64,000 bases of DNA. Origin: Roseobacter insulae (GTDB taxonomy: Bacteria > Pseudomonadota > Alphaproteobacteria > Rhodobacterales > Rhodobacteraceae). The position numbers were made by a program, and so were the translations under genes. Positions 26,826 through 39,689 of the stretch are shown piece by piece. The number at the start of each line of letters is the position of its first letter. The first letter of the stretch is position 1. Under the pieces are notes generated by a model. The model was not told the origin of the DNA. It did not search any database and saw nothing but the letters and a program-made list of their open reading frames with translations. The stretch covers positions 372,001 to 436,000 of the forward strand of contig NZ_JAHXDN010000003.1 of assembly GCF_019375555.1 (NCBI RefSeq), read 5' to 3'.

Positions 26826-26850
26826 GTTCGCAAATGTTCTTAAAAAGTTC
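26826..26850 (+). promoter_or_regulatory. SOS (LexA) operator upstream of a small membrane protein
   Basis: Three GTTC words occur at 26826, 26836 and 26847. The last two form GTTC-N7-GTTC (GTTCTTAAAAAGTTC, 26836-26850), the exact alphaproteobacterial LexA site known from Rhodobacter and Caulobacter. It lies 55 nt before the start of the 42-residue membrane protein and directly after recG. LexA control is inferred from this match. Confidence 0.7.
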
Positions 26851-26905
26851 TTTACAGAGGGTTAAAAAAATGAGAACAAAGAAGCAACAAGTACGGGAGG
26901 CCTTC

Positions 26906-27034
26906 ATGACGACACTCTTGCAGATCAAAGCCATAGCAACGCGGTCACAGCAGACATTGCTGCAGGACGCCGCGGGTGCACTCGCCTTGATCATCATGCT
27001 TGTTGTCGGGCTGCACCTTCCGGCCTTTATCTGA
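26906..27034 (+). CDS. 42-residue membrane protein behind an SOS operator
   Basis: The ATG at 26906 follows GGGAGG at about 5 nt. An in-frame ATG at 26870 (GAGGG upstream) would give 54 residues. The protein has a polar, probably cytoplasmic N-terminus (TTLLQIKAIATRSQQTLLQD) and a C-terminal membrane helix (GALALIIMLVVGLHL) ending in PAFI. The upstream GTTC-N7-GTTC element predicts induction by DNA damage. In Caulobacter, SOS-controlled small membrane proteins (SidA, 29 residues) stop division by binding the divisome. I infer only a similar architecture here, not homology. Confidence 0.65.
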   Translation: MTTLLQIKAIATRSQQTLLQDAAGALALIIMLVVGLHLPAFI

Positions 27035-27176
27035 TTTCTGCCTGCGATCTCGCGCCGGGCTTGCGCCAGTACTTTCCCCAGTCTGGTACATGAGACGAAC
27101 ACTGCCTGTTCCCCGTCTCGTCAGGGTTCTCCCCTGCCGCGCAACCCCGGGTCCCACGTGAGAGACGCTTTACCTG

Positions 27177-27214
27177 ACGCCGCCATCCTGCTCGGGATGT
27201 GCGGCGTTTTTTTT
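27177..27214 (+). terminator. Rho-independent terminator of the small membrane protein transcript
   Basis: ACGCCGC pairs with GCGGCGT and an inner CATCC pairs with GGATG around a 6-nt loop, with one bulge. Eight T residues follow. It ends the plus-strand transcript about 140 nt after the small gene, which leaves a long 3' untranslated region. The opposing gene ends 23 nt further on. Confidence 0.85.
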
Positions 27215-38657: not shown

Positions 38658-39689
38658 ATGGTTCTGAGAACGTTCATAGCATTCGACAACGACAGTCTTG
38701 TTGTCACGTCAAGCGCAAATGGTGGCCTTGTCGGCAACCCGGTCGTGAACAATTCGGACACGCCTGACGGCACGGTCTTTCAATATTCCAGCGCCAGCGG
38801 CACGCAGATCGAGCTCAACGACACCGGCGGGGGCGCGAGCCGCTTCAATGACGACAACGCTGGCAACCACGTGATCACCGACGGCGGTGGCATCGTGGCA
38901 AACGGGACAGCGGTTGAATCGGAATCGATCCTGTTTCTGCGCGCGCTCGACAGCAGCGGCAACCAAACCGGGCCGGAGATATCGGTCTATGTCTTTTCTC
39001 AGAACGGCAATTTCAATGATATCTGGGGGTATGCCACCAGCGAACCGCTGCAGGACGGGGTGTCTTACGTCAAGATCGACGGGTCGAATTCAGGCACGTC
39101 ACGCTACACGGATTACGTCACCTGTTTCGCCGATGGTACCCTGATCGCGGGACCGGACGGTGAAGTGGCGGTGGAAGACATCGAAAAGGGCCAGCTGATC
39201 TGGACCCGCGACAATGGCATGTTGCCCGTTCAATGGATCGGAACCACAGCGGTGGCGGGCCATGGCGCCTTTGCGCCGGTGGTCTTCGAGGCGGGCGCCA
39301 TCGGCAACGAAACCGCGCTCACCGTCTCGCAACAGCATCGCATCTGGGTGGAAAGCGCGATGGCGGAGCTCTTGTTCGGGAAATCCGAAGTACTTGTCGC
39401 CGCGAAACATCTTTGCGGTCTGCCGGGCGTCAGCCTGCAACCGAGAGAGCAGGTGACCTACACGCATTTCATGTTTGGCAGTCACCAGATCGTCCGGGCC
39501 AACGGTGCGCTGACAGAAAGCTTTTTTCTGGCCGACAATGCGCTGCGGACGCTGGAGGCAGGGCCACAGGCCGAACTGCGGGCGCTCTTTGCCTCCGCAG
39601 ACGCCGGTTTTCGCCACTTTGGCACGACGGCGACAATGACGCTGACCGCCCGCGAAGCGGCGGCGCTGAAACCCTATTTGTCTTACTGA
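38658..39689 (+). CDS. Hint-domain (hedgehog/intein fold) protein
   Basis: The 343-residue protein starts at ATG 38658. A 150-residue N-terminal region rich in Gly, Asn, Asp and Ser looks beta-structured (ISVYVFSQNGNFNDIWGYA). A Hint module follows from Cys156 (TCFADGTLIAGPDGEVAV, EDIEKGQLIWTRDNG) to His227 in VSQQHRIWV. These are the residues that in hedgehog and inteins drive acyl shift and self-cleavage. There is no signal peptide; many roseobacter relatives are secreted by type I systems. It stands alone, 228 nt after rpsI, with no secretion genes nearby. Confidence 0.8.
   Translation: MVLRTFIAFDNDSLVVTSSANGGLVGNPVVNNSDTPDGTVFQYSSASGTQIELNDTGGGASRFNDDNAGNHVITDGGGIVANGTAVESESILFLRALDSSGNQTGPEISVYVFSQNGNFNDIWGYATSEPLQDGVSYVKIDGSNSGTSRYTDYVTCFADGTLIAGPDGEVAVEDIEKGQLIWTRDNGMLPVQWIGTTAVAGHGAFAPVVFEAGAIGNETALTVSQQHRIWVESAMAELLFGKSEVLVAAKHLCGLPGVSLQPREQVTYTHFMFGSHQIVRANGALTESFFLADNALRTLEAGPQAELRALFASADAGFRHFGTTATMTLTAREAAALKPYLSY

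Follow-up and report, generated by a model that had tools for sequence, protein, structure and literature searches.

The 42-codon open reading frame (ORF) behind recG in Roseobacter insulae very probably belongs to the LexA/RecA (SOS) regulon and is controlled by LexA. Control by LexA is very likely because a putative operator at its promoter ranks first in a matrix scan of the window (the whole 64-kb stretch of DNA analysed), because the promoter element is conserved (300/395 genomes), and because the operators lie at the promoter itself. It is just as strongly expected that the ORF gives rise to a translated membrane protein. As to function, the best explanation, to which slightly better than an even chance is assigned, is that this SOS-controlled membrane protein delays cell division by way of the divisome. 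The features on which the argument draws are the following:

26826-26829, plus strand: third, outer GTTC half-site, separated by N6 from the next; 81-88% conserved per base in 75 distinct loci, with GTTC-N6-GTTC in 24/30 loci.
26836-26850, plus strand: putative LexA operator 1, GTTC-N7-GTTC; scores highest of all window positions with the matrix (21.0), present in 30/30 loci found by the peptide.
26851-26856, plus strand: putative -35 hexamer TTTACA; per-base conservation 0.99, 0.97, 0.81, 0.91, 0.91 and 0.69 in 75 distinct loci.
26870-26879, plus strand: putative -10 region ATGAGAACAA; 0.76-0.99 per base, resembling the TAGAAC of lexA.
26874-26888, minus strand: putative LexA operator 2, weaker and inverted, GAAC-N7-CAAC; GAAC-N7-(G/C)AAC in 27/30 loci, matrix score 13.8.
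26895-26900, plus strand: ribosome-binding site GGGAGG, 5 bases 5' of the ATG; seen in the sequence, with purine-rich sites before the ATG in 30 relatives.
26906-27034, plus strand: ORF of the 42-aa protein, for which a single membrane helix is predicted; based on sequence, conservation, dN/dS and a structure model.
27176-27214, plus strand: intrinsic terminator, with a stem-loop at 27176-27208 and a U tract to 27214; -23.6 kcal/mol, z -5.6 against 200 shuffles.

The operator, the gene, the membrane topology and the terminator are supported by sequence comparison; the exact promoter boxes, the binding of LexA and induction are inferred.

The ORF begins 97 bases beyond the recG stop codon and has its own ribosome site. 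The same frame is open farther 5', giving 54 codons from an in-frame ATG at 26870. A conserved DNA block, ATGAGAACAAA, contains that ATG, which relatives have in a different frame (L006, L007, L009), with a stop codon after it (L002), or altered to ATAGGAAC (L021) or GTG (L026). Because the ATG lies in a conserved block and is not maintained as a start codon in several relatives, the 42-codon form is taken as the gene, and the 54- and 77-codon versions were rejected. Comparison within the genus indicates that the 42-codon ORF is a real gene under purifying selection, with a median dN/dS of 0.167 over 127 of 171 pairs (synonymous divergence was zero or saturated in the other 44) and a pooled pN/pS of 0.36. 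A reading of the locus as an RNA gene was set aside, given this protein-level selection and the lack of an Rfam match at the locus. The terminator at 27176-27214, a stem-loop that is not among the calls of a simple terminator scan, argues that the small gene appears to stand alone as its own transcription unit.

A small single-helix membrane protein behind recG, preceded by a ribosome site, had been claimed from the sequence, and this description held: the product has 42 residues and one predicted helix, and GGGAGG is present. The consensus of 30 members is MxxLxQIKxIAxRSxxTLLQDAAGAxALxVMLxVGLHLPxFx, with D21, G24 and L36 invariant. Lysine and arginine (K/R) average 2.4 residues before the last 22 positions and are absent from those 22 in 74/74 distinct members, a count that is independent only for the first 30, because later members were picked for a hydrophobic tail. 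Since K/R are N-terminal and missing from the last 22 residues, the N-terminus is predicted to lie inside and the C-terminus outside. The structure model has helices at residues 3-13 and 15-41 (mean pLDDT 89.7), the helix moment is low (0.09), and the protein is predicted to be a very small one with one inner-membrane helix. A Pfam scan of the 30 members gave no match, and NCBIfam has no family for the small protein either. The NCBIfam and PHROGs matches that did appear were four in number and weak, each confined to one or two of the 30 members (best E 0.0012, to phosphoglycolate phosphatase, in one member); they were taken as chance and their family names rejected.

A search with the 54-codon form of the peptide gave a match in 30 of 59 relatives, made up of 19/19 from the genus, 11/16 from the rest of the family and 0/24 from other families. 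recG precedes the small gene in all 30 loci, which were found by the peptide alone. A lack of conservation of peptide or operator in relatives had been named beforehand as one of two findings that would refute the sequence-only reading, and on this point the reading was not refuted. A profile of the 30 members matched in 349/395 Rhodobacteraceae genomes (314/351 genera), GTTC-N7-GTTC stood between recG and the start codon in 30/30 loci, and the bipartite element GTTC-N7-GTTCTTTAC-N16-GAGAACAAA, allowing up to three mismatches over 22 fixed bases, was found in 300/395 genomes, with 4 for a reversed control. The SOS-type operator proposed ahead of a small membrane-protein gene next to recG is thus strongly supported by comparison. 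Among named genomes the exact element occurs in at least 118 stretches; the 80 titles among the matches listed are, we take it, Rhodobacteraceae by name or alphaproteobacterial bins. The peptide lies downstream in 114 of the stretches listed; of the four misses among the matches listed, two have at most 71 bases downstream and two score E 0.002. recG lies upstream in 116 of the 118 listed, and of the two misses among them one has 67 bases upstream; in the second, L289, the 745 upstream bases contain no recG.

The distribution ends at the family in the genomes sampled. A class-wide sample of 241 genomes gave 4 matches, all in the family itself and none outside it. When recG loci were fetched from 30 of 57 class-wide genomes, the one Rhodobacteraceae locus had the operator and a small helix ORF, and 29/29 loci from other alphaproteobacterial families had neither behind recG. 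A homologue outside the family was sought in these two samples and rejected. One homologue of 57% identity lies at 332590-332700 of NZ_CP039965.1, the unannotated record of a 1.58-Mb plasmid of Pseudorhodobacter turbinis.

Charge, copy number and distribution together bear on the idea that the gene encodes an SOS-induced, membrane-depolarising peptide of the TisB kind that brings about dormancy, possibly with an antisense RNA. Small size, hydrophobicity and an SOS-type promoter would all fit such a peptide. TisB, however, has a charged amphipathic helix, and here all 74 members lack K/R in the last 22 residues and the helix moment is only 0.09. A single copy in a fixed place with family-wide spread is also unlike type I toxins, and the profile gives a single match in 339/349 positive genomes, at a fixed site behind recG and throughout the family. 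With no Rfam match at the locus either, a peptide of the TisB kind is considered very improbable, and regulation by LexA of a protein with another role is preferred.

The three GTTC words claimed from the sequence, two of them as GTTC-N7-GTTC, were indeed found, at 26826, 26836 and 26847, the latter two forming the pair. GTTC-N7-GTTC is the LexA motif of Caulobacter (PMC12700426, in the part drawn on here). The pattern alone predicts little: the window holds 2 bare occurrences against 1.8 expected, and the genome 135 against 99 for a reversed control, so near to chance that the bare count was discarded as evidence. Twenty sites in the genome, hand-picked among the 100 listed out of 135 and mostly with AT-rich spacers, include five recognised at SOS genes. 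These are lexA and recA, named by family search, and presumably imuA, imuB and mmcB, named from sequence. A matrix made from these five SOS promoters was scored at every window position on both strands. The way it was built gives exact matches an advantage, and there are only two of these in the window. Operator 1 came first with 21.0, within the range of the known SOS-gene sites of the same genome (15.9-24.3 for the five reference sites, leave-one-out). The significance of operator 1 therefore rests on context (its matrix rank) and on conservation, not on the bare pattern. Second, at 17.7, was the GAAC at 26874-26877 as a lone half-site, and fourth, at 13.8, the same GAAC paired with the CAAC at 26885-26888; of the top four scores in the 64 kb, the small-gene promoter thus accounts for three, which are not three independent sites. 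The other exact GTTC-N7-GTTC in the window (38661-38675) lies inside an open frame, scores 12.9 and is probably a chance occurrence. Elsewhere in the genome, a site at C10:293391-293405 (L157), GTTCATGATTTGTTC, extends over the initial codons of what is, to our eye, a gene resembling that of the DNA-ligase-associated metallophosphoesterase, and may mark a further SOS target.

None of the eight best matrix sites in the window lies directly before ligA or recG. Because the operator lies behind recG and no top-eight site directly precedes ligA or recG, it most likely serves the small gene, and service to ligA-recG was judged unlikely. In a study that tabulates predicted LexA regulons, those of Rhodobacter sphaeroides and Paracoccus denitrificans among them, recG of some alphaproteobacteria is said to appear LexA-regulated (PMC3323433, in part). 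The sites were taken there to serve recG, whereas the site described here is behind recG and most likely serves the small gene.

The second, inverted operator is an addition to the three GTTC words of the first reading. It arises from the block GAGAACAAA...GCAAC, which reads GAAC-N7-CAAC and is one base off a reverse operator; the operator is perfect (GAAC-N7-GAAC) in L011, L173 and L177. Among 50 further loci, two of which (L175, L192) lack recG in the piece fetched, the operator 2 pattern had no match in eight, including L178, where the wrong ORF was picked. An alignment of 75 distinct loci on operator 1 reads TGTTCt.AaaAaGTTCTTtAC, about 12 free bases, and then a.aTGAGAACAAa...gcAACa. Its 100% GTTC is circular because the alignment was anchored on GTTC, and 20 further loci came from element matches; the independent counts for the operator are the 30 peptide-found loci and the scan of 395 genomes. 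Of the 74 loci that yielded both parts, 70 have GTTC and GAGAAC spaced 36 bases apart. L178 was left out of the 74-member statistics and the 75-locus alignment, and L127, L132 and L148 (duplicates of L001, L017 and L014) were left out of the spacing count and the same alignment.

TTTACA directly abuts operator 1, and several relatives have TTGAC as the -35; operator 2 overlies the putative -10 and start. A generic sigma-70 scan saw no promoter at the small gene. The lexA promoter reads TTGACA-N17-TAGAAC with GAAC-N7-GAAC across it. By eye, the recA promoters of the genus (L104-L120) have GAAC-N7-GAAC together with an upstream, degenerate GTTC-N7-GATC-like site, and with two sites there, double operators may be common in Rhodobacteraceae.

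Operator 1 deviates from the five reference sites in having A, rather than T or C, before its second GTTC. This base, and the fact that TGTTCTTAAAA-AGTTCTTTACA can be read as 11-bp direct repeats beside the -35, would suit another regulator, such as an activator of the OmpR/PhoB family, in which case the gene would stand outside the SOS regulon. Such a regulator would leave unexplained why the matrix of five SOS promoters puts this site first in 64 kb, and why the promoter has, farther downstream, another site of this type in inverted orientation. The same holds at recA, where L099 has the nearly identical block AATGAGAACAAGAGGCGAAC. A regulator other than LexA is on these grounds most improbable, and the GTTC repeats are best read as a LexA operator.

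Genomes in which the profile finds no match suggest that the arrangement outlasts recognisable similarity of the protein. Thirty of the 46 profile-negative genomes were chosen; with a threshold of E 1e-150, a recG locus was recovered from 23 (those without were G068, G097, G420, G032, G131, G182 and G401). Nineteen of these loci are from lexA-positive genomes, and 11 of the 19 have GTTC-N7-GTTC behind recG; 10 of those 11 also have a short hydrophobic ORF whose divergence puts it beyond the reach of the profile (that of G195 is doubtful). With such diverged ORFs in profile-negative genomes, 349/395 is probably a lower bound. The remaining 8/19 lack GTTC-N7-GTTC, with G033 and G155 (perhaps G126) retaining a helix ORF, and the operator is, on this sequence comparison, sometimes lost. 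The profile-negative loci L173 (G378), L174 (G260), L352 (G135) and L360 (G096) have the operator and a short, strongly diverged helix ORF. As judged from these loci, the architecture appears to have changed less than the protein has.

A lexA match was found in 385/395 genomes (382 above the cut-off). The gene is absent from 4/10 lexA-less as against 41/385 lexA-positive genomes (Fisher p 0.019, an association that comes from 3 genera and involves fragmented assemblies); by the profile alone, 5/10 lexA-less genomes are without it (Fisher p 0.0028). Neither operator nor helix ORF was found behind recG in G404, G190 and G217; for the fourth, G068, no recG locus was found and absence refers to profile and element only. 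Because G068 and G404 belong to one genus, the co-loss of lexA and the gene is suggestive and not more. Five lexA-less genomes keep the peptide, and G310 keeps the element and has operator and helix ORF behind recG in an assembly of about 560 pieces. Each of these six assemblies is broken into about 300 pieces or more, so that lexA may be unassembled there. G068, G404, G190 and G217, together with G097 and G420 (weak lexA, E about 1e-22), are possible SOS-loss lineages.

Among known systems that stop division, YneA of Bacillus subtilis comes from a different phylum and carries a further domain. By description it is comparable in that it is induced by the SOS response, inhibits division and interacts with FtsW (PMC13396833, in part). 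SulA of E. coli (PF03846) shares the SOS-induced division stop, but acts on FtsZ polymerisation (PMC4211646, in the sections drawn on here), and its domain was absent from 35/35 genomes, including that of R. insulae and 21 of the family, with E. coli positive as a control. SidA of Caulobacter crescentus, which is SOS-induced and 29 residues long, resides in the inner membrane and acts on FtsW (PMC4211646, same sections). The likeness to SidA lies in a very small inner-membrane protein of an alphaproteobacterium and in the shared GTTC-N7-GTTC LexA motif (PMC4211646, PMC12700426, each in part); SidA has 29 residues as against 42 here, and it is likened by description and not by sequence. DidA of Caulobacter is an SOS-independent division inhibitor that interacts with FtsN (PMC4211646, same sections). 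It too is a DNA-damage-induced small membrane protein with a single helix, compared here from its description, but it has 71 residues and is induced by DriD, not LexA. A SidA-like role fits the small protein best because it has a predicted single N-in helix and its own promoter and terminator, and because no SulA was found in the 35 genomes.

Single-helix microproteins often tune larger membrane proteins. A membrane target other than the divisome has to be weighed: a sensor kinase, protease or transporter, through which the SOS-controlled protein would affect the envelope state, the release of gene transfer agents or the CckA/CtrA relay after damage. The SOS link would stand without the divisome, and in Rhodobacteraceae LexA has been linked with CckA/CtrA and with gene transfer agents (PMC6473078, in part). 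The neighbourhood, however, suggests no partner beyond recG, and a division inhibitor is typical of SOS regulons (PMC4211646, same sections), with SulA not found in the 35 genomes. Another membrane target is accordingly held to be rather unlikely, and division, by analogy with known inhibitors and not through any pointer to the divisome in the sequence, is somewhat favoured as the target of the small protein.

In the model that follows from a division target, LexA bound to operator 1 at the -35 and to operator 2 over the -10 and start would keep a short monocistronic transcript off; repressor on both operators would bar polymerase. Upon DNA damage, RecA would cause LexA to be cleaved and both operators would be released, allowing transcription to start near 26880 and run as far as the terminator, which ends at 27214. 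The product would be the 42-residue protein, its amphipathic N-terminal segment on the cytoplasmic side, followed by a single helix in the membrane and a C-terminus on the periplasmic face. It would most likely bind a membrane part of the assembled divisome, for which SidA and DidA suggest, by analogy, FtsW, FtsI or FtsN as candidates, and septation would be delayed until LexA is restored.

A LexA study of Dinoroseobacter shibae lists lexA, recA, dprA and others (PMC6473078, in part), and the small gene is not mentioned in the parts of that study or of PMC3323433 considered here. In the open-licence literature, no title or abstract start names the small gene, and no named factor was found that stops division of Rhodobacteraceae (roseobacters, Rhodobacter, Paracoccus) after DNA damage. 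SOS regulons typically include a division inhibitor (PMC4211646, same sections). It is tentatively suggested, with a little less than even confidence, that the small gene is the missing SOS division checkpoint of Rhodobacteraceae, a fast-evolving membrane microprotein that lies behind recG in most of the family and arose independently of SidA, SulA and YneA, and whose LexA promoter, with three GTTC half-sites and an inverted site, has persisted even where the protein is barely recognisable. If true, this would give one more example of a single damage switch that governs unrelated microproteins. With a conserved 42-residue candidate and a defined promoter, the question of how division is stopped becomes directly testable in laboratory roseobacters.
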